This document shows positions 2,347 through 12,481 of a DNA stretch of 64,000 bases, piece by piece; positions within the stretch are counted from its first letter, which is position 1, and every line of letters begins with the position of its first letter. Source of the stretch: Planctomycetota bacterium (GTDB lineage Bacteria > Planctomycetota > Planctomycetia > Planctomycetales > Planctomycetaceae); assembly GCA_016872645.1 (NCBI GenBank), contig VGZH01000012.1, positions 1-64,000 on the forward strand. The letters are read 5' to 3'. Both the position numbers and the translations under genes were made by a program. Under the pieces are notes generated by a model that was not told the origin of the DNA, ran no database searches, and saw nothing but the letters and a program-made list of their open reading frames with translations.

Positions 2347-3141
2347 TCACAGCGGAAGCCGGAGTCCGTCGTAGGCCAACTCGACGCCAGCAGGCAAGCG
2401 AGCATTTGTGGCGTCGTAGTCGAGCTTGTGGGACACATGCGTGAAGAACGCTTGGCGCGGACGGAGCCGTTCCACGACCTTCAAACTTTGAGCGATGCTG
2501 AAGTGTGTCGGATGCGGATTGTCTTGCAGGGCGTCGAGGATCAGCACGTCCAGCCCTTCCAGCAGCGGCCAACTTTCCTCAGGGATGTGGCTGACGTCGG
2601 TGCAGAAAGCGACGTCATTGATTCGATAGCCGAGGATCGGCAACTGCCCGTGCAGCAAGCGGATCGGCTGCACTCGCTGGCCGAGCACGTCGAAGGCCTC
2701 GAGGCCAATCCGCACAAACTCCAATTTCGGAATCGCCCCCGGATGCAGGACTTGGGATGGAGTCTCGAAGGCGTAACCGAACGACGCGCGAAGCTGTCGC
2801 TCGACCCGCTCTTCGCAAAACAGCGGAATCGGCCGCGACAACTTCCAACCGCTGGTCCGCAGATCGTCGAGCCCAAAAATGTGATCGGCATGCGCGTGCG
2901 TGAACACGGCCGCTTCAATTAAACGGACTCGCTCACGCACCAATTGCAGCCGCAGTTCGGGGGGAGTGTCGATGACGAACACGCCGCGCGGAGTGTTGAT
3001 CGCGACACCGGTGCGCGTGCGATGATTCTTCGGATTAGTCGATGTGCAGACCGCGCAATCGCAGCCGATCATCGGCACACCGACGCTGGTACCGGTGCCA
3101 AGCAGGATCAGTTCGCCGCGAGATGAGTCAGGTTCAGGCAT
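2347..3141 (-). CDS. MBL-fold metallohydrolase (PhnP-like)
   Basis: LLGTGTSVGVPMIGCDCAVC and HAHADHIFGLDDLR motifs. Confidence 0.85.
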   Translation of the reverse strand: MPEPDSSRGELILLGTGTSVGVPMIGCDCAVCTSTNPKNHRTRTGVAINTPRGVFVIDTPPELRLQLVRERVRLIEAAVFTHAHADHIFGLDDLRTSGWKLSRPIPLFCEERVERQLRASFGYAFETPSQVLHPGAIPKLEFVRIGLEAFDVLGQRVQPIRLLHGQLPILGYRINDVAFCTDVSHIPEESWPLLEGLDVLILDALQDNPHPTHFSIAQSLKVVERLRPRQAFFTHVSHKLDYDATNARLPAGVELAYDGLRLPL

Positions 3142-3159: not shown

Positions 3160-4605
3160 TCAAGGCGGACTCAGCAACTTCCGCAAGCGCTGCAGATCGG
3201 CCTGCAAGCGCTCGATCGGTTGAGCGGCAAAATCACGCGGGCTACGAAGCCCAGGCTGGAAGTTCAACGTTTCATTCATCGAGTCGAGCACAGCCTGAAT
3301 CTGGCGGTCCTGTTCTGGGTCTGTTTGCGTGCTGGCGACGATCGCGTGTTGCAGCGCGTTCAAGCTCAGAAAGAGTTGCGTGGCCGAATCCCAATCGCGA
3401 TTCACAAGGTTTAGGCCATCATCGGTCACGAAGGCGAGTCGCATCGCCGCGAGCGATTTCGCGGAGAGCACGTCCTTGGCTGCATCGTTGCGGTTGAATC
3501 GTTCAGCTGCCGAACGAAGTCCCTGCGCGATGGCGATGGCTTCGCGCGAGATCGCATCGGCTGGCAAGACTGGAGACTCAAACCGTGACCGCAGCTTCGT
3601 CAATTCGGATTGCGGGATTGAGTTCTCTGAACCGACGACTCGCCGAGCGAGCGGATCGAGCATCGCATACGGCCATGCGTTCCAGGCGAACGAACCTCGC
3701 GGGCGTTTCGCCGCGTCTTTCGACTGCCACCAGCTTGCGGATCGCAAATCGTGATGGCAGGCGAAGCAGTTCCATTCGGCAAGTTCTGGCCACCTGGCGG
3801 GAGTCACTTTCGCCAGCTCCGCACGCTGGCTGAGCAATTCCAAAGAACGCTGTGCCGCGACCGTCTGGCCGACAGTCCACAGCTTGGCCTCGAAGACAGA
3901 TCCTTTCTCGACGGCCGGATGCCGTTTCGCATCGACTTCGGCAGGCCAATGCTTAGGCCAGTTGGCGTGGAACGTGGAGAGTTCAAAAAACAGACGCGGG
4001 TGTCCGGCGGCGATCAAATCGTGATTGACGTCTCGGCCGGGGCCGCCGACATGGCAATCGGCACAGGCATTGGCTCGCGTCAGTACGTCGGTCAGGTCGC
4101 GATAACCTCGACGCTGTTTATCCGCCGCAGATCGCAGCTTCCAGTCGCTGCGGACATGCTCAGTCAGCCAGCGCTCTGCGGGACCGTGGCATTGCTCGCA
4201 ATCGACACCGGCGAGCGGAGTGCGACCGGAAATTGAAGTCAGCTTGGACTCAACGCTGGTTGCTGGCGAGTGGCAGTTCAAACAGACGGCAGACTCATGT
4301 GCCGGCTTCGGCAGGTTGAGCAGTGCGGCCATTTGTCGCGAGAGATCGTTTTCCAGGACCGAGTAGGCTCGGGAATGTGGGTCGCGCGCGGACCAGATCG
4401 GGAACTCAGAGCCAACGAATTTGTGGCCGGCGAGTCCGCCGTGACAGGCGGCAGTCGCACAGGAGGCGCTCCCGACGAGTTTGGGTGGCGCGTCTTCGGC
4501 AACGGTGTCATCGGCGCTGAGGCAGACGACAATGCAGAGTGCCGATTGCAGAGTGCAAAGTGCAAAGTGAGTGGCACGCGCGGCCATCACTCTCACATTG
4601 TTCAT
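3160..4605 (-). CDS. Secreted multiheme c-type cytochrome (cytochrome c554-like)
   Basis: Four CXXCH motifs (CLNCH, CEQCH, CADCH, CFACH) plus one CX4CH (CATAACH). Likely start at MNNVRVMAAR with a hydrophobic signal peptide. ORF track runs to 4701. Confidence 0.75.
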   Translation of the reverse strand: MNNVRVMAARATHFALCTLQSALCIVVCLSADDTVAEDAPPKLVGSASCATAACHGGLAGHKFVGSEFPIWSARDPHSRAYSVLENDLSRQMAALLNLPKPAHESAVCLNCHSPATSVESKLTSISGRTPLAGVDCEQCHGPAERWLTEHVRSDWKLRSAADKQRRGYRDLTDVLTRANACADCHVGGPGRDVNHDLIAAGHPRLFFELSTFHANWPKHWPAEVDAKRHPAVEKGSVFEAKLWTVGQTVAAQRSLELLSQRAELAKVTPARWPELAEWNCFACHHDLRSASWWQSKDAAKRPRGSFAWNAWPYAMLDPLARRVVGSENSIPQSELTKLRSRFESPVLPADAISREAIAIAQGLRSAAERFNRNDAAKDVLSAKSLAAMRLAFVTDDGLNLVNRDWDSATQLFLSLNALQHAIVASTQTDPEQDRQIQAVLDSMNETLNFQPGLRSPRDFAAQPIERLQADLQRLRKLLSPP

Positions 4606-4640
4606 TTTGCATTCTGCACTCTGCACTTTGCATTTCCTCT
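4531..4640. repeat. Heptad repeat inverted pair (TGCAAAG/CTTTGCA type)
   Basis: TGCAGAG TGCCGAT TGCAGAG TGCAAAG TGCAAAG ... TTTTGCATTCTGCACTCTGCACTTTGCATTT. Confidence 0.8.
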
Positions 4641-6196
4641 CACCGCACAAACGGGCCGTCCCACTTGTTCTTGGAGCGGTCGTGATAAACGTGGCACTCA
4701 ATGCACAACGTCCGAGCGCCGCGGTTTACGTTTGAGAGCAGGTCTTTCAACGATTCGTTTGGCGGTGCCTGTGGCGATTCCGATTTAGGAACGCTGTCGG
4801 CTTTGATTCCGTCGAGCCATTCGGCGGGGCGGTGAGCGTGACAGGCTCGACAAATGTCGATCGAAGGGATCAGCACGTCGCCGGTGTTTTTGCTTTGAGC
4901 CACATCGGCGTGGCAGACCGTGCAACTCAGCAGGCGATGTGGTTCGTGATGGAATTTGCTGTGCAGCAGCCAGCGCGACGGGATGTTCGTCGGGACAATC
5001 TTCCAATCTGCGATCGCAGTCGGAGATTTGTCGGCGACTGGTTCAACTTCGTGGCAGTAACGACAGCCGCCGGTGGCTTCGTAGCCGAATTGGCTGTGTC
5101 GATGCTGCTGAGCAATCTGCTCGGCCTTGGTAACGTCATCGAGAACGGCCTTGGCTTGATCCTTGGAGAGTCTCTGGAAGTCGCGATGGCCGGGGAGCGG
5201 GCGCGACGGCTCATCGCTCGGGAGTCCGACTTCCGACTTCCGACTTCCGAATTCCCTCAGCGTGTAGGTCTCTGTGAGGAATCCGCGGACGATGTCCGGC
5301 GTCTGGTGCGGTACGGCTTGGCCGGGGAAGCGTTCGTGGTCGAAGAGCAGCGGATGGCATTCACGACAGTGTCGCTCGAACGAGATCGGCTTGAGGAATC
5401 GCCCTTCCTGGTCCGGTTCGTGGCAAACTTCGCAGCTGCGAGACAGGTCTGTTAACTTGCGGTCCTTGCCGATCAGCCCGTGAATAAGTTTTCCATTCGC
5501 GTCGTATTCCGCCTTGAGATGCGCGGCGTGGTTGAAGCGAATGCGGCCTCGGTCCTGCCACCGCGAAGCCGCGTCACCGGGACGTTTGAAGTTCTCGATC
5601 GCGAGATTGACTCCGTGCTTGGCGTTTGGAGGCTCCGACGCCGCGTCCTTCAGCAGCGTCTTCAGTCGAAACTCGGGATGACCTTCGCGTTCATCGAATC
5701 GAATGACACGCTTTGCGAAGACCTCGCTCACGCCGTGAGTCGTTTTCAATTCGGTGTGACAGGCGATGCAGTGGCGACTGCTGGGCCTGGTGAGCATGTC
5801 GGTCCCTTCGTGCTCCTGATGGCAGGCCGCGCACGAGATGTCCTTGTGAGCCGGAATCTGATTGGCGTGATGCTCGGCGACACGGTGGCAGGTCTCGCAT
5901 TTCTTGTTGTCGATCGAATGGGCGTCGTCAGAGAACGCGACCAGTCGTTGCAGCGGAGTCCACGTCGTATGACAGCGCCAACATTCGTTCTCGATCAACC
6001 GATGCGGCGTGGTCACGTCACCGGCCTGATAGATCTGATTCTCCCCCTGCGAATGCTGGAGCATCAACCACATCAGCGAGCCGACGCCTGACCACAACGC
6101 CAGCCACCACGCCGCGCGACGCTGGCGGTTCGGCTGCCGATGCACGTTGATGTCCACGCGACTGGAAAGCTCGCGGCTGGAACGCAGCATCTTCAT
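4640..6196 (-). CDS. Decaheme c-type cytochrome
   Basis: Ten CXXCH motifs (CWRCH, CETCH, CAACH, CIACH, CEVCH, CRECH, CRYCH, CTVCH, CRACH, CIECH) and an N-terminal TM segment. Start chosen at the ATGA overlap with the upstream gene. Confidence 0.8.
   Translation of the reverse strand: MKMLRSSRELSSRVDINVHRQPNRQRRAAWWLALWSGVGSLMWLMLQHSQGENQIYQAGDVTTPHRLIENECWRCHTTWTPLQRLVAFSDDAHSIDNKKCETCHRVAEHHANQIPAHKDISCAACHQEHEGTDMLTRPSSRHCIACHTELKTTHGVSEVFAKRVIRFDEREGHPEFRLKTLLKDAASEPPNAKHGVNLAIENFKRPGDAASRWQDRGRIRFNHAAHLKAEYDANGKLIHGLIGKDRKLTDLSRSCEVCHEPDQEGRFLKPISFERHCRECHPLLFDHERFPGQAVPHQTPDIVRGFLTETYTLREFGSRKSEVGLPSDEPSRPLPGHRDFQRLSKDQAKAVLDDVTKAEQIAQQHRHSQFGYEATGGCRYCHEVEPVADKSPTAIADWKIVPTNIPSRWLLHSKFHHEPHRLLSCTVCHADVAQSKNTGDVLIPSIDICRACHAHRPAEWLDGIKADSVPKSESPQAPPNESLKDLLSNVNRGARTLCIECHVYHDRSKNKWDGPFVR
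5221..5258. repeat. Heptad repeat inside the decaheme CDS
   Basis: CCGACTT x3 then CCGAATT, exact 7-bp period. Confidence 0.8.
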
Positions 6197-7893
6197 CTCC
6201 CAAACGGAACCACGCGCAGTGACACGATGACGTGCGCGACAAACAAAACAAGCAACGCAATCGACGGTGGAATGTGCAGGATCAGCCACCAGTGCAGCCA
6301 GCGATGTAACCGCAACTGGGTGTTGAACTGCCGTCGCTCCTCGCAGAGGTCTTCGAGTTCTTGCAGCGAGTCGTGCAGTTCGGCCGGCAGATCAGATCGC
6401 AGTTGTGCGAAGATTCGCCGAGCGGAGATGTTGTCGTCCAACCGATGCTGCGGCGATCGGCCGTTGTTCAAGAAAGGTCGCACGACGCGAATATGAAAGT
6501 CACGGAACTTTGCCAACAGCGCGGGAGGCGTCGGCGCAGCGATCTTCGGTGGAGTGGCGGCGACAGGTTTCTCTGCGGTGGGCTTCACCATCGGCGCTGG
6601 CTTTTTGACCGCTGGCTTTTCGGCGGCGGGCGCTGCTGCCGTGGTTGGTTTTTCGGCTGTGAGTGGCTTGTGCGTGTCGGTCGCCGAGTCCGCTCCTGAA
6701 CCCTTCGCAACCGCGAGTTTGGCCTGCATTTGTTGCAACGGAGACAGCTTCATTTCGGGAGTTGCCGCTGGTGCAACCTCGGCAGCCGGTGCGGCCTCGC
6801 TGGGCGTTGGAGCGGACTTAGCAGCCATCTTGGCTCGCATCTGTTCGAGCGGAGACAACTTCTTCTCTTCGAGAGGAGCGGCAGGAGGGGCTTCGACAGA
6901 AGAAGTCGGACTTGAAGCCTCTGCATTCGGCTGTGCGGCTGATTTCGCGGCGGCTTTCGCACGCATTTGTTCGAGGGGCGAAAGCTTCTTTTCCGGCTCG
7001 GCCGCAGCGGAAGAAGTTGGATTCGCAGTCGTCGGCGCGGGAGCTTCACCACCTGCGGCTTTGGCAGCGGCTTTTTCACGCATCAGTTCGAGTGGGCTTT
7101 TCGGCTTCGTCGCAACGGGCGAATCTGGGACTGTGTCGGGTTCCGAGCCCTCAGCCGGTTTTTGGCCACCCTCTGCCGAGGGAAGAGGGGTGGTGTTCGG
7201 GAGAGTGGGTTTTGTGGCGATGATTTCGGCAGGAGCATGGGCTGCTGGTTTCTTGGCGTCTGCTTCGGGGAGCGGGACGTTGGCGTAAACCTTTGCCAAC
7301 TCCTTCGGGAAGTCGGACTCACGTTTCAGCACGCGTTGCTGTTTAAGGACTTCCTTGGCGAACGGCTTGATTGGTTCGAAGTCGATGTCGAGCGCTCCGG
7401 CTTGCTTGGCGACCAGTTGATCCGCGCGGAATCGCATCGTTTGTGACAAGAATGGAATCTGAGCAACCATCGTTTCCAACGGCACACGCATCGTCAGCAA
7501 TCGCGGGATGACTTGTTGCAGCGCGACTCCCGCGAAACCGGTCGCGACCACCAGTCCGAACGCGACCCACAGCAGATTCTCCAGCACGCCTCCCCAGTGA
7601 AAGCCGGCGTGAAACAGAATCAGCACGAAGCCCAGCGTCCCCAACCACAAATGCCCACGCAACCAAAACTGAGCCGAACCGACTCGCCAAGTTGGTAGCC
7701 GTTTGCGTACGGCCAGCAGCGCGGCGAAGATCATCAACAGCGAACCGGCGATGCCAAGAATCAAACCAAGGACACTTCCGCCCGTCGGGCCGTGAATCGA
7801 CCGCTTGTCGATCGCCCAATAAGCCGATGCCGCGACCGACAGCACGAGTGTGCTTCCAAAAATCCAGGGCTTGTGCGTCCGGTCAATCAGCAA
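6193..7893 (-). CDS. Membrane protein with His-rich TM segments (cytochrome b-like) and a long Ala/Pro/Lys-rich repeat insert
   Basis: N-terminal TMs with HLWLGTLGFVLILFHAGFHWGG, C-terminal LHRWLHWWLILHIPPSIALLVLFVAHVIV, central SPLEQMRAKAAAK-type repeats. Confidence 0.65.
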   Translation of the reverse strand: MLIDRTHKPWIFGSTLVLSVAASAYWAIDKRSIHGPTGGSVLGLILGIAGSLLMIFAALLAVRKRLPTWRVGSAQFWLRGHLWLGTLGFVLILFHAGFHWGGVLENLLWVAFGLVVATGFAGVALQQVIPRLLTMRVPLETMVAQIPFLSQTMRFRADQLVAKQAGALDIDFEPIKPFAKEVLKQQRVLKRESDFPKELAKVYANVPLPEADAKKPAAHAPAEIIATKPTLPNTTPLPSAEGGQKPAEGSEPDTVPDSPVATKPKSPLELMREKAAAKAAGGEAPAPTTANPTSSAAAEPEKKLSPLEQMRAKAAAKSAAQPNAEASSPTSSVEAPPAAPLEEKKLSPLEQMRAKMAAKSAPTPSEAAPAAEVAPAATPEMKLSPLQQMQAKLAVAKGSGADSATDTHKPLTAEKPTTAAAPAAEKPAVKKPAPMVKPTAEKPVAATPPKIAAPTPPALLAKFRDFHIRVVRPFLNNGRSPQHRLDDNISARRIFAQLRSDLPAELHDSLQELEDLCEERRQFNTQLRLHRWLHWWLILHIPPSIALLVLFVAHVIVSLRVVPFGR

Positions 7894-10147
7894 CTTCTCG
7901 CCTCCCGCTCAGAAAGAAATCTTGGGCGTGGACACGCATCGCGGCATCATGCGGGCAAGCATAAACGCACGAGGGTGACTGACTGGGTAACGAACTGCAC
8001 AAGTCGCAGACGACTGCTTGCTCGGTGATCGACTTGATTTCCGATTCGGTTCCGAGTGCTTCGCGAGCCTGTGCGCTCAGTTCGACCGGCTTGGTCAGCG
8101 GATTCATCTGGATCGAGCCGTAGGGGCATTGATCAGCGCACATGCCGCAGCCGATGCACCAATTCTCGATAACGATTTCTCCCTTGTCTCCTCGATGGAT
8201 CGCGCCGACCGGACAACCAATCATGCAGACCGGGTCAAGACACGACCGACATGAGATCGGCACAAGATAATTTTCAAATCGCGGTCCATCGAGGAACAGC
8301 CGTGTGCGGCCATCGTCGTGAGCGGCCACGCACGCCTCGACGCACTGGTTGCAGCGCGTACAGCGGTTCAGGTCGATCAGCATCAGCTTTTGACCTTGGA
8401 TCAATCCCAACTGTTCGAACTCCGGCGACTGCGTTGAGAAAAACAACCAGGCATCGGTCTTCGTCTGCTCGACCGATCGCTGTTTGCGCTGAGCGATCAC
8501 GGCCTCGACTTTCGCCTTCAGCTTCGGCGACGCAGCGACCAGGTCTTGGAATGCGGATTTGCTGATCTTCACCAATTCGACGCGCGATGGAACGGCTCCG
8601 GTGCGCGAGTCGGGGACTCGCTGATTGGCTCCGCCATCGGGATGATCGTAGGCGTAGACCGTCGCACTGCGCGGTTCGTTGGCGATGACTCCTATCTCAC
8701 CGAAGTAGTCGCCAAGGCCCAGATAACTGAGTGTCCGCCGAGGCCCGGCGCTCACCGCGCGGCGCGGCATGTTGGCAAAGACTAGTTCAAGCAGCAGCCG
8801 ATGGAACGTGCGTGACTCCAAATCCGACCACTTTTTCGGATCGTCTGGGAAATCGTTCATTGCCAAGGTGATGGCGACACTGTCCACCGCCATCGCCACA
8901 TCGGTTGTCGTCTTGCCGAACTGGGTGTGCAACTCCCCGTTGCAAATCAGCTCATTCAATCCGGCGATCAACGTCGCTTGATCCGCCTCACTGGCGGACT
9001 TCGTGGCGACGATCCGATCAGCCGCCTCTCGGACGGGTGATGAAAGAGCCGTAGCGACCTTTGATGCCAGTGCCGATGTTTTTGTGTCACTGATTTCTGC
9101 CGCAAGACCGGTCCACTGTGCCGCGGAAAACTCTGACGCACGAGCCTGCGTCCAGGCGTTGGCGACGACTTTCACCAAGCCGCCGCGAATGACGTAGAAC
9201 GCATCCGAAGAATCGAACTGCTCGAAGATGATCCCGCCGGTCGGGACTTCGATCAGTTCGATCGCCTCGCGAAGTTTGGCGAATTCCGAGTCGCTCAGAT
9301 TCTCGAAGATCGACAGCCGGCGGACGTGGTTTTCCAGGACTCGCTGCCTGTAGATCACATCCATCTGTTCCTTGTACGCTGGGTCGCTGTGCAGCATGTC
9401 GAGGACATTGCGGAGCATCTCCAGCATGTAGCACTCTTCGTCGGCCGCGACCGTCGCCGAGCGTGGCGCGCGGTTGATGCAGCTCATCTCGCCGAATAGG
9501 TCCCCCTCGTGCAGTGGAGCCATCTTGGTCGCCGCATTGACGTCGGCCCCGTCGATGGCAATCCACTTGGGCAGCTTGCGAGTCAATCTCCGTCCGGTCA
9601 GCCAGCGTGCCGCTCGCTGCCACAACGAACGGCGAGCCGCGTTGCCTTCCAGATTGACCAGCAGATGCGCGGTCGCCCGCTGCCGTAGCGAGACATTCGT
9701 CTTGCTCTCCGGGCGGTCCAACTCTTCGGCTTTGGGCCGCAACTGTTGAACCTCGCGGAGATATTCGTTTTCGAGTTTCGAGAGATCGTTCGCTGTCATC
9801 CGAGCATACTGCGGATGCAATTCCTCGCGTGAGCGTCCCGCCGCTCGATCCTCCAGTTCCTTGCGGATGCCCTTGATCTGGACTTCACGCAGTCTGAGCA
9901 CGTCGCGCGTCGTCAGAATTGTGAACGCCGTCGCGCCGGCGGCGCCCTGTTCGCAGAGCACACGGCCGGGATGGCACTTTCGCAGCAGCGTTGAACCGGG
10001 GAACTTCTCGAACGACGGCGCTTTCTTGAGCGACTCGAAGATCGACAAGACTCCCAGTTCTTTGGCTGTGAGCAATTCATCTTCCGGGCCGATGGCAGCG
10101 GCAATCTGTTCGAATTCGGCCGGAATGTTGGTAACGATCTTCGCCAT
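7883..10147 (-). CDS. Two cyclic-nucleotide-binding domains fused to a DMSO-reductase-beta-like 4x[4Fe-4S] ferredoxin
   Basis: Two CNB-like segments (GDLFGEMSCINRAPRSATV, LGDYFGEIGVIANEPRSATV), then CTRCNQCVEAC, CRSCLDPVCMIGCP, CIGCGMCADQCP, CDLC...CVYACP. Start chosen at MAKIVTN. Confidence 0.85.
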   Translation of the reverse strand: MAKIVTNIPAEFEQIAAAIGPEDELLTAKELGVLSIFESLKKAPSFEKFPGSTLLRKCHPGRVLCEQGAAGATAFTILTTRDVLRLREVQIKGIRKELEDRAAGRSREELHPQYARMTANDLSKLENEYLREVQQLRPKAEELDRPESKTNVSLRQRATAHLLVNLEGNAARRSLWQRAARWLTGRRLTRKLPKWIAIDGADVNAATKMAPLHEGDLFGEMSCINRAPRSATVAADEECYMLEMLRNVLDMLHSDPAYKEQMDVIYRQRVLENHVRRLSIFENLSDSEFAKLREAIELIEVPTGGIIFEQFDSSDAFYVIRGGLVKVVANAWTQARASEFSAAQWTGLAAEISDTKTSALASKVATALSSPVREAADRIVATKSASEADQATLIAGLNELICNGELHTQFGKTTTDVAMAVDSVAITLAMNDFPDDPKKWSDLESRTFHRLLLELVFANMPRRAVSAGPRRTLSYLGLGDYFGEIGVIANEPRSATVYAYDHPDGGANQRVPDSRTGAVPSRVELVKISKSAFQDLVAASPKLKAKVEAVIAQRKQRSVEQTKTDAWLFFSTQSPEFEQLGLIQGQKLMLIDLNRCTRCNQCVEACVAAHDDGRTRLFLDGPRFENYLVPISCRSCLDPVCMIGCPVGAIHRGDKGEIVIENWCIGCGMCADQCPYGSIQMNPLTKPVELSAQAREALGTESEIKSITEQAVVCDLCSSLPSQSPSCVYACPHDAAMRVHAQDFFLSGRREVAD

Positions 10148-10267: not shown

Positions 10268-10307
10268 GAAAAAACTCTCGACCCCGTGCAACACGAAGTC
10301 GAGAGTC
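10268..10307 (-). terminator. Rho-independent terminator downstream of the slipin gene
   Basis: Minus-strand read ACTCTCGAC...GTCGAGAGT followed by a T-run. Confidence 0.65.
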
Positions 10308-10401: not shown

Positions 10402-11502
10402 CTAAATCATGTTGATGACGCGTTCCGCCAGCCCCTTCTCGCCGAGGACGATGTTGAGCTTGCCGGTCGATGCGATCTTCTCCAGGACTTCCAGCTCACG
10501 CAGACGCATGAGCGTCGGGTTGTCCTGAAGCAACTTCGCGGTGTTCGACTGGCTGCGGATCGCGGCCGTCTCTTCGCGACGCACGATGAGGTTGGCCTCG
10601 GCCGCCTTCTTGGCTTCCGTGACCTTGTTCATCAGATCTTTCATGTCGCCCGGCAGAATCACGTCGCGGATTCCGAACGAGACAACTTCCAGACCCAACT
10701 GTGCGGCTCGCGGACGGACGAGCTGCTCCAGCTCGCGCACGACCGATTCCTTGTCGGCCAGGAACGGGTCGAGTTCGCGCGTGCCGAGGATCGCTCGCAA
10801 CGCCAACTGAGCCTCGCGGTACAGAGCCTGACGGAAGTCGTCGGCCACGCCCAGCGCCTGCCGCACGTCCGTGACGCGAAACGTCACAACGCCGTTCAGA
10901 CGCAGCGTCACCTTGTCCGCCGTCATGATCTCCTGACCGCTGACATCCAGCATCGTCTCGCGAACGTCCACCGGGACCAGCTTGATCGTCGCGATGTTCT
11001 TCCAGAACGCATAACGCCCCGGCGACAACACCGCCACGATCTCGCCATCCTGAAACAACACACCCTGCTGACCCGCCTCAACGCTCAGCACGTCGAGAGC
11101 CTGGCCCACCAGCGTGGACTTCAAGATGACCGGCAAGTCCGCGTGCTCGAACCGCACCCGCCGCGCGTCGATCACCTCGACCCGCACGTCGCGGAACTTC
11201 GTCCAATACGCGAACTGCCCCGGCGGCAACACATGGCTGAACCGCCCATCAACCCACACCAGCCCGCGCTGGTAGTCCTTCAGGTCAACGACAACAGCTC
11301 GCCCGTCGAGCGCCCCCGACTTCACGATCACATCCAGCTTCTCATGCGTCAGCCACGGAGCCCGCTGCGACACAACATCGACGGTCACTCGACCGAGCGG
11401 ATCGAAGAAGCGATGCGTCCCCTCGCCGAGCAGCCCGACGAACTCCCCTCGCCGGAACAACAGCCCGACCTCAAAGCTGCGAATGAAGATCTTCTTGAAC
11501 AT
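10402..11502 (-). CDS. Slipin/SPFH-domain protein
   Basis: SPFH/band-7-like sequence with a C-terminal coiled region (KVTEAKKAAEANLIVRREETAAIRSQ). Confidence 0.8.
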   Translation of the reverse strand: MFKKIFIRSFEVGLLFRRGEFVGLLGEGTHRFFDPLGRVTVDVVSQRAPWLTHEKLDVIVKSGALDGRAVVVDLKDYQRGLVWVDGRFSHVLPPGQFAYWTKFRDVRVEVIDARRVRFEHADLPVILKSTLVGQALDVLSVEAGQQGVLFQDGEIVAVLSPGRYAFWKNIATIKLVPVDVRETMLDVSGQEIMTADKVTLRLNGVVTFRVTDVRQALGVADDFRQALYREAQLALRAILGTRELDPFLADKESVVRELEQLVRPRAAQLGLEVVSFGIRDVILPGDMKDLMNKVTEAKKAAEANLIVRREETAAIRSQSNTAKLLQDNPTLMRLRELEVLEKIASTGKLNIVLGEKGLAERVINMI

Positions 11503-11633: not shown

Positions 11634-12045
11634 ATTTCAAACACCCTCGGGCGGCGAACCGCGCGACTGTCACAGACGATCTCGGCGGGAGGACGTTTTG
11701 AAAGGGCGCGCTGACTCGGACCCCGACCATGCTGGCGTCGCGTTCGTGTTTTCGTGGAGCACGAGTTCCTCGTGCTCTCGTTCAGACACGATCAATTCGT
11801 GCCCCACGGATTCGCGACGCGACACACGGCCGTTCGCCGAGCCTCACGCCAAATCAATATCGTCCCCTCAAAGCCCCGATCGCTGCTGCTGGTCTCATCG
11901 TCATGGCACTTCGTGACCCAGATTTCTCTGCGATCACGTCGCGCCTCAGATTGCGAGTCACGGAATGACTCGCCGACGAAACCAGCCGACAACCGTCCGG
12001 CCGCCTCCCTTGGGTTTTCTGGTAAACGCTTTACAGGCGTTTGGC

Positions 12046-12115
12046 CGTGTGGACGGGATTCGAACCCGCAACTTTCAGGTTAAGGGCCTGATGCTCTCCA
12101 ATGAGCTACCCATCG
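12046..12115 (-). tRNA. tRNA-like, anticodon CTT (Lys), mispaired acceptor stem and C33
   Basis: D-stem GCTC/GAGC, loop CCCTTAA closed by TCAGG/CCTGA, T-arm GCGGG-TTCGAAT-CCCGT; acceptor CGATGGG/CCACACG has three internal mismatches. Confidence 0.6.
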
Positions 12116-12213
12116 ATGCCGCTCCGTTATTAATCCAGTTAGGAACACGTCACGCTGACCGACCTCTCGGAGCCAACGCGCCCCTGGCCGGGCGTCATCA
12201 ACACGCTGCCTAC

Positions 12214-12266
12214 TCGTGGCCGACGCAGCTTGCGTCGGCTGCGGATGCTGGCAGCATCCGCCACGA
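12214..12266. repeat. Three-way-junction palindrome
   Basis: TCGTGG ... CCACGA enclosing two hairpins, CCGACGCAGCTTGCGTCGG and GCGGATGCTGGCAGCATCCGC. Confidence 0.7.
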
Positions 12267-12271
12267 AAAAA

Positions 12272-12336
12272 GATGCCGGTGAGAGTCGAACTCACTCAGT
12301 GCTGCTTTGCAGGCAGCCGCCAAACCGTTTGACATC
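12272..12336 (-). tRNA. tRNA-Cys(GCA)-like with shortened D-arm
   Basis: GCTGC-CTGCAAA-GCAGC anticodon arm, GTGAG-TTCGACT-CTCAC T-arm, acceptor GATGTCA/CGGCATC; only about 12 nt between acceptor and anticodon stem. Confidence 0.65.
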
Positions 12337-12347
12337 GGCGTCGGTGC

Positions 12348-12404
12348 ATTTTCGATTTTTGATTGCTCAATCACACTAAATCGAAAATCATCAATCAAAA
12401 ATTC
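12348..12404. repeat. Heptad repeat hairpin (TCGAAAA/TTTTCGA type)
   Basis: ATTTTCGATTTTTGATTG ... AATCGAAAATCATCAATCAAAAAT. Confidence 0.7.
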
Positions 12405-12411
12405 CAAAGGC

Positions 12412-12481
12412 GTCCTCGCCAGGAATCGAACCTGGTCCGCGACCTTCGCAGAGTCGCGTGCATCCGCCACACCCCAAGGAC
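12412..12481 (-). tRNA. tRNA-Arg(GCG)
   Basis: Acceptor GTCCTTG/CGAGGAC, D-stem GTG/CAC, loop CTGCGAA, T-arm CCAGG-TTCGATT-CCTGG. Confidence 0.75.

Follow-up and report, generated by a model that had tools for sequence, protein, structure and literature searches.

Between positions 3160 and 10147 of a planctomycete contig lie four minus-strand genes whose products resemble the parts of an electron-transfer chain: an iron-sulphur protein with cyclic nucleotide-binding domains (FeS-CNB), a membrane protein, a decaheme cytochrome and a pentaheme cytochrome. Where would electrons enter such a chain, and where would they leave it? The stretch analysed, referred to below as the window, comprises 64,000 nucleotides (Planctomycetota bacterium, assembly GCA_016872645.1, contig VGZH01000012.1, positions 1-64,000); this and all other genomes used are draft metagenome assemblies. 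An initial annotation of the window had proposed a route from cytoplasm through membrane to periplasm, a proposal that the present analysis supports, and had considered the terminal partner unknown. A candidate partner has now emerged. We think it reasonably likely that the four products, together with an LVIVD-repeat decaheme cytochrome and a probable barrel protein encoded on contig C119 of the same genome, form a trans-envelope conduit that carries electrons of NADH or ferredoxin out of the cell and is gated by cyclic nucleotide monophosphates (cNMP) at its cytosolic entry.

The four genes overlap or nearly touch at their ends and are read in the following order:

7883..10147, minus strand: gene 1, FeS-CNB protein, 754 amino acids, with a conserved start (MAKIVTNIP)
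6193..7893, minus strand: gene 2, di-heme cytochrome b-like membrane protein, 566 amino acids, overlapping gene 1 by 11 bases
4640..6196, minus strand: gene 3, periplasmic decaheme c-type cytochrome with an N-terminal membrane anchor, sharing an ATGA with gene 2
3160..~4605, minus strand: gene 4, pentaheme cytochrome of the Cytochrome_C554 family, with a signal peptide, one CX4CH and four CXXCH motifs

The list of open reading frames is over-long for gene 3 (to 6289) and gene 4 (to 4701), and internal ATG starts were used for both because their homologues begin there. The packed, overlapping arrangement described in the initial annotation is borne out by the gene calls, the Pfam domains and the counts of heme motifs.

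Is this arrangement a functional unit or an accident of one genome? The same order of the four genes is kept in eight other loci, all of which retain the decaheme gene (8/8). One of the eight lies on a Phycisphaerae contig, where the first three proteins are ~31-44% identical to those of the window. Across 392 Planctomycetota genomes, surveyed with a threshold of E <= 1e-60 for FeS-CNB, this gene is present in 23. It occurs in 10 of the 12 genomes of the source genus and is mostly absent from the rest of the family. The membrane gene was found above 230 bits in 24 genomes (the next matches score 99 bits), among them all 23 that carry FeS-CNB, an overlap for which 1.4 would be expected (p ~3e-36). 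The two genes share a contig in 20 of these genomes, lying within ~16 kb of each other, and two very fragmented assemblies are among the exceptions. Judged from sequence, this synteny in eight loci and the phylum-wide co-occurrence are such that chance is excluded, and the suspicion of the initial annotation that the genes belong together is confirmed in other genomes.

Two further observations were made in the course of this survey. In distant genomes (loci L101, L103, L104 and L105) cytochromes with 18 and 15 hemes flank the FeS-CNB and membrane genes, replacing the decaheme protein, near an LVIVD gene. Three public contigs titled Candidatus Kuenenia stuttgartiensis (L005, L006 and L010) carry a module ~85% identical to the one analysed here; rather than anammox genomes, they seem to be relatives of the source organism under a wrong label.

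The candidate for the terminal partner came from the neighbourhood of related modules. In the Phycisphaerae locus (L011) and in a marine member of the Planctomycetaceae (L009), a ten-heme cytochrome with LVIVD repeats is encoded upstream of the module, and in the latter a probable outer-membrane barrel gene adjoins it. The source genome has both genes side by side on contig C119. Its LVIVD cytochrome (1299 amino acids, 10 hemes, signal peptide) is 56% identical to the Phycisphaerae protein, and its barrel 66% identical to that of L009. Of the 392 genomes, 38 encode an LVIVD cytochrome; 22 of the 23 FeS-CNB genomes do so, where 2.2 would be expected (p ~9e-25), and in many genomes the LVIVD gene is a neighbour of the module. 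Among the 16 LVIVD genomes that lack a strong FeS-CNB match, a more distant CNB-FeS relative is encoded in 15, in several cases no more than 20 kb away from the LVIVD gene. Counted from inspected loci, a barrel-like gene stands directly upstream of the LVIVD gene in 13 of the 14 in which that side is visible. The barrel-like proteins, sampled across several families, carry a β-signal-like xFxQLxLxY at the C-terminus, which makes them probable outer-membrane barrels. A barrel gene of this probable identity thus adjoins a multiheme cytochrome gene, the arrangement typical of porin-cytochrome conduits. The heme region of the LVIVD cytochrome matches the model of Geobacter ExtM in all five proteins tested (best 1.2e-29). 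The source genome also encodes, on contig C15 (L069:5588-8362), a second large multiheme cytochrome of 925 amino acids that is distantly related to the LVIVD heme region.

How would electrons reach this outer pair from the cytosol? The FeS-CNB protein is assigned to the cytosol because it has neither a signal peptide nor a transmembrane segment. It consists of two CNB domains, each broken by a helical insert, followed by a domain for four [4Fe-4S] clusters. Pfam cNMP_binding matches it in three stretches (5.8e-19; 68.3 bits against a cut-off of 27.5) and several Fer4 models match it above their cut-offs. Its best solved sequence relatives are, for the FeS part, HycB3 and HycB4 of hydrogen-dependent CO2 reductase and, for the CNB part, the regulatory subunits of protein kinase A (PKA-R). 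The cluster-binding region is as follows:

7955..8362, minus strand: four-cluster ferredoxin region with 16 Cys (C596-C731), spaced as fits four [4Fe-4S] clusters

These 16 Cys are invariant among eight homologues. The initial annotation had seen no oxidoreductase linked to the cluster; among relatives, such a link is found repeatedly. Several FeS-CNB proteins of the divergent kind begin with NuoG-like domains (Fer2_4 and ferredoxin domains), and at three loci (L052, L055 and L098) a gene for a NuoE-NuoF fusion protein adjoins that of such a protein. At three others (L011, L038 and L039) a type II NADH dehydrogenase fused to a CNB domain (NDH-2-CNB) sits beside the module. The source genome has an NDH-2-CNB too, with an intact CNB cassette, on contig C129. 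Since NuoG-like/NuoEF or NDH-2-CNB modules are fused to FeS-CNB or flank it in relatives, NADH is the best-supported cytosolic donor for the family as a whole. For the module of the window ferredoxin is equally possible, because the gene cluster there contains no NuoE or NuoF subunit.

The NDH-2 partners can also be read differently. Quinone is the usual acceptor of NDH-2 enzymes, and relatives have an NDH-2-CNB linked to the module, while the source genome encodes one as well. The di-heme b might then exchange electrons with the quinone pool, and the module would be a quinol:cytochrome c oxidoreductase with a CbcL-like entry, the FeS protein serving as a secondary input or as a sensor. Precedent favours such a scheme, given that the known conduits draw on the quinone pool through the quinol oxidases CymA, CbcL and ImcH with which they begin (PMC6295460). 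However, the cytosolic four-cluster FeS subunit is retained throughout (23/23 genomes), and NuoG-like domains with adjoining NuoEF in some relatives point to direct cytosolic input. We therefore regard entry through quinol as unlikely and return to the FeS subunit as the entry of a conduit fed by NADH or ferredoxin.

The next carrier would be the product of gene 2, which has five hydrophobic, helical membrane segments. Two of these hold pairs of His:

7609..7653, minus strand: helix 3, H81 and H95, 14 residues apart, invariant in 19/19 homologues
6232..6276, minus strand: helix 5, H540 and H554, 14 residues apart, invariant in 19/19 homologues

Two helices, each with two His ~13-14 residues apart, are what is expected of a di-heme four-helix cytochrome b. 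The predicted helices thus bear the di-heme cytochrome b signature of the ferric reductase/b561 type, and, to judge from the positive-inside charge, the two hemes would lie close to opposite faces of the membrane. Pfam matches are weak and comprise Ferric_reduct (best 2.8e-4; 4/16 members), DUF4405 (6/16) and Ni_hydr_CYTB; a profile search of the PDB with this protein gave no match. A similarity to STEAP1 (VIA-align Z 6.7, among helical bundles) was inside the noise and was not used. Helices 4 and 5 are joined by a variable Pro/Ala-rich linker, which accounts for the difference between the 566 amino acids of the protein here and the 304 of its Phycisphaerae homologue and is for this reason not essential to the core. 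Within the linker (6700-7100, minus strand) there are about four copies of an (L)SPLEQMRAKxAAK motif, absent from the short Phycisphaerae homologue, which could possibly act as a docking peptide. The membrane protein contains no CXXCH, the c-type cytochromes being separate proteins; c-hemes and membrane helices are not joined in one polypeptide as they are in CbcL, ImcH and CymA. Those separate cytochromes are the product of gene 3, with ten CXXCH motifs behind its N-terminal anchor, and that of gene 4, which is c554-like (Pfam Cytochrome_C554, 1.3e-12).

Comparative genomics supports the layout of a conduit well; heme ligation, electron path, independence of quinone, outward direction, substrate and gating are what we infer for it. 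NADH, by way of NuoEF/NuoG-like or NDH-2-CNB partners such as those of the relatives, or else ferredoxin, would reduce the cytosolic four-cluster subunit. This would pass electrons to the di-heme cytochrome b, whose two hemes would take them across the inner membrane. The anchored decaheme and the pentaheme cytochromes would span the periplasm, and the barrel together with the secreted LVIVD decaheme protein of contig C119 would hand the electrons to an extracellular acceptor. Electron entry would probably be switched by the CNB domains of the FeS subunit, upon binding of a cyclic nucleotide made by class III cyclases.

Several observations weigh against this scheme. The structural model of the membrane protein is mediocre (pLDDT, the predicted local distance difference test, of 71), and Foldseek found no match for it at E <= 0.001, so that the fold search is not diagnostic. 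The FeS part of the FeS-CNB model is of low confidence. The barrel has no match in sequence searches of Pfam, NCBIfam and the PDB, which are library searches and not a direct comparison with MtrB/OmbB or MtrA/OmaB. One genome, G044, has the module and lacks the LVIVD cytochrome. Lastly, the source genome has its outer-membrane genes on a different contig from the module. This separation would fit a module that feeds a soluble periplasmic reductase, the co-occurrence with barrel and LVIVD genes then reflecting a shared lifestyle rather than a single conduit, and the relation of the pentaheme protein to cytochrome c554 points the same way. The two halves nevertheless adjoin directly in genomes from several families and co-occur almost completely, and no catalytic periplasmic reductase was seen conserved with the module. 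We consider it quite improbable that the chain ends in the periplasm.

Which way would the current run? Typical extracellular donors could reduce NAD+ or ferredoxin only in an uphill reaction, and nothing in the module was recognised as a proton-driven subunit. Both points argue against the reverse direction, in which electrons from Fe(II), reduced humics or similar donors would flow to cytosolic carriers. It must be noted that porin-cytochrome conduits are known to operate in both directions (PMC6295460), and that direction is not fixed by sequence alone. We consider inward flow very doubtful, and take the conduit to be an outward one in what follows.

The most unusual feature of this putative conduit is the pair of CNB domains at its entry. 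The phosphate-binding cassettes are located as follows:

9449..9496, minus strand: CNB1 phosphate-binding cassette, FGEMSCINRAPRSATV, near-invariant in 8/8 close homologues
8657..8704, minus strand: CNB2 phosphate-binding cassette, FGEIGVIANEPRSATV, with Glu and Arg invariant among eight close homologues

In the AlphaFold model the two domains are β-rolls with helical insertions, and they match the tandem CNBs of PKA-R and of PKG, the cGMP-dependent protein kinase (Foldseek E ~1e-10). Across the phylum the CNB1 Glu/Arg motif (FGEM[ST]C..PRSATV-like) is kept in 22 of 23 FeS-CNB homologues, and the CNB2 motif in 16 of 23. A missing cassette would have spoken against the putative cNMP control suggested in the initial annotation; the cassette is intact, and the predicted fold is PKA-R-like. 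Three class III cyclase domains are present in the source genome and could supply the cyclic nucleotide. CNB folds that do not bind cNMP are known, however, and structures of the cAMP-independent PKA-R of Trypanosoma are among the fold matches obtained here. The domains could accordingly be structural or bind another ligand, electrons following the same route without cNMP regulation. The lesser conservation of the CNB2 cassette would agree with this; the retention of cassette Glu and Arg in CNB1, and the intact cassette in the CNB domain of the source-genome NDH-2, would not. We see the loss of cNMP binding as a possibility to be kept in mind, though not the likelier one, and retain a cNMP-gated entry in the proposed scheme. 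G044 (locus L041), the sole FeS-CNB genome without an LVIVD cytochrome, is also the sole one in which the CNB1 cassette motif is missing; its FeS-CNB copy may have been repurposed.

In known Gram-negative conduits, control is exerted mainly through gene expression. A bolder version of our proposal, advanced tentatively and as rather unlikely, is that the system represents a quinone-bypassing extracellular respiration: NADH or ferredoxin would feed directly into a single wire, and cNMP bound to the entry subunit would gate the current allosterically, not by transcription.

With which known systems can the locus be compared? By its predicted function it belongs with the porin-cytochrome conduits (Mtr, Pcc, Ext). 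It shares with Mtr and Pcc, taken together with CymA, CbcL or ImcH, a redox entry at the inner membrane, multiheme cytochromes in the periplasm, a barrel in the outer membrane, here a probable one, and a multiheme protein that is secreted (PMC6295460). It differs in its entry, a cytosolic FeS-CNB protein and a separate di-heme b instead of a quinol-oxidising c-type protein or b/c fusion, and in its barrel, which matches no family in the libraries searched. The Ext cluster of Geobacter (ExtHIJKLMNOPQS) comprises the 12-heme ExtM, the 10-heme ExtN, the 5-heme ExtKL, the cytochrome b ExtP, the Rieske-type FeS protein ExtO and the porin ExtI (PMC5877670). The sets of components are similar: a porin, to which a probable barrel corresponds here, 10-heme, 5-heme and other multiheme cytochromes, a cytochrome b of the inner membrane, here a predicted one, and an FeS protein. 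Unlike the module here, Ext as described in that publication includes neither a CNB nor a 4x[4Fe-4S] subunit in the cytosol. Membership in the Ext families was rejected, the scores lying below the curated cut-offs (ExtM, 82.8 against 800 bits; ExtN, 26.9 against 200; ExtO, 26.6 against 200). Neither the barrel nor the membrane protein has an Ext match in NCBIfam, a library in which the presence of ExtP and ExtI models was not checked. Closer in taxonomy are the Verrucomicrobia porin-multiheme clusters of He et al. (PMC5615132), a conduit predicted by genomics in a related group of the Planctomycetes-Verrucomicrobia-Chlamydiae assemblage, with adjacent porin and multiheme genes. Compared by description, these differ in having eight-heme periplasmic partners, and the section consulted mentions no CNB/FeS entry or LVIVD repeats.

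The entry subunit has its own relatives. By sequence its FeS domain is closest to HycB3 (1.1e-15) and HydN, that is to four-cluster subunits of the HycB/HydN type, and NuoEFG diaphorase modules resemble its relatives through their NuoG-like domains and NuoEF fusions. In contrast to all of these, the FeS domain here is fused to a tandem CNB and linked to cytochromes, not to formate dehydrogenase, hydrogenase or complex I. The modelled CNB part resembles the PKA regulatory subunit and PKG in its tandem fold and cassette residues, but has long helical insertions within each CNB, and its effector would be an electron-transfer domain in place of a kinase or DNA-binding domain. Text searches of the open-access literature brought up no paper in which a CNB domain is named alongside a multiheme cytochrome, nor one that links LVIVD repeats to such cytochromes; this is weak evidence of novelty.

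If the proposal is correct, conduits would here follow a different wiring plan, with a cytosolic entry subunit that is linked to NADH in some relatives and constructed around sensors of cyclic nucleotides. Extracellular electron transfer would then also be expected in Planctomycetota other than the anammox group. The genes would offer a direct handle on second-messenger gating of electron flow.

The limits of the module are set by its neighbours. Downstream, an MBL-fold gene (2347-3141) keeps its place beside it in close relatives alone; in L008 and L009 none was seen near the module. Upstream, an SPFH gene (10402-11502) is seen only in L004 and partly in L006, and it lies behind a terminator-like hairpin. 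Neither gene is counted as a member. The hairpin is placed as follows:

10273..10307, minus strand: terminator-like hairpin that separates gene 1 from the SPFH gene, a consensus match only

Further upstream, beyond the SPFH gene, three tRNA genes lie close together (12045-12481, minus strand).

Repeat elements are found within the module itself. The most prominent lies between the two periplasmic cytochrome genes:

4533..4640, minus strand: dispersed palindromic repeat between genes 3 and 4, forming a strong hairpin (z -4.1) and also encoding part of the gene 4 signal peptide

Repeats of this TTTGCACTTTGCACTCTGCA type have 17 matches in the genome and 0 in a reversed control, and the repeat is placed alike, at the junction of genes 3 and 4, in L004, L005, L006 and L010. 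In-frame GGAAGTC repeats (5223-5255, minus strand) in the decaheme gene encode the peptide SRKSEVG, and the linker of the membrane protein contains an in-frame CCTCTTCCCTCGGCAGAGGG palindrome (7150-7200, minus strand) that encodes the peptide PLPSAEGGQKPAEG. These in-frame inserts in the decaheme gene and the membrane linker vary in position among relatives, like palindromic elements that insert into reading frames.

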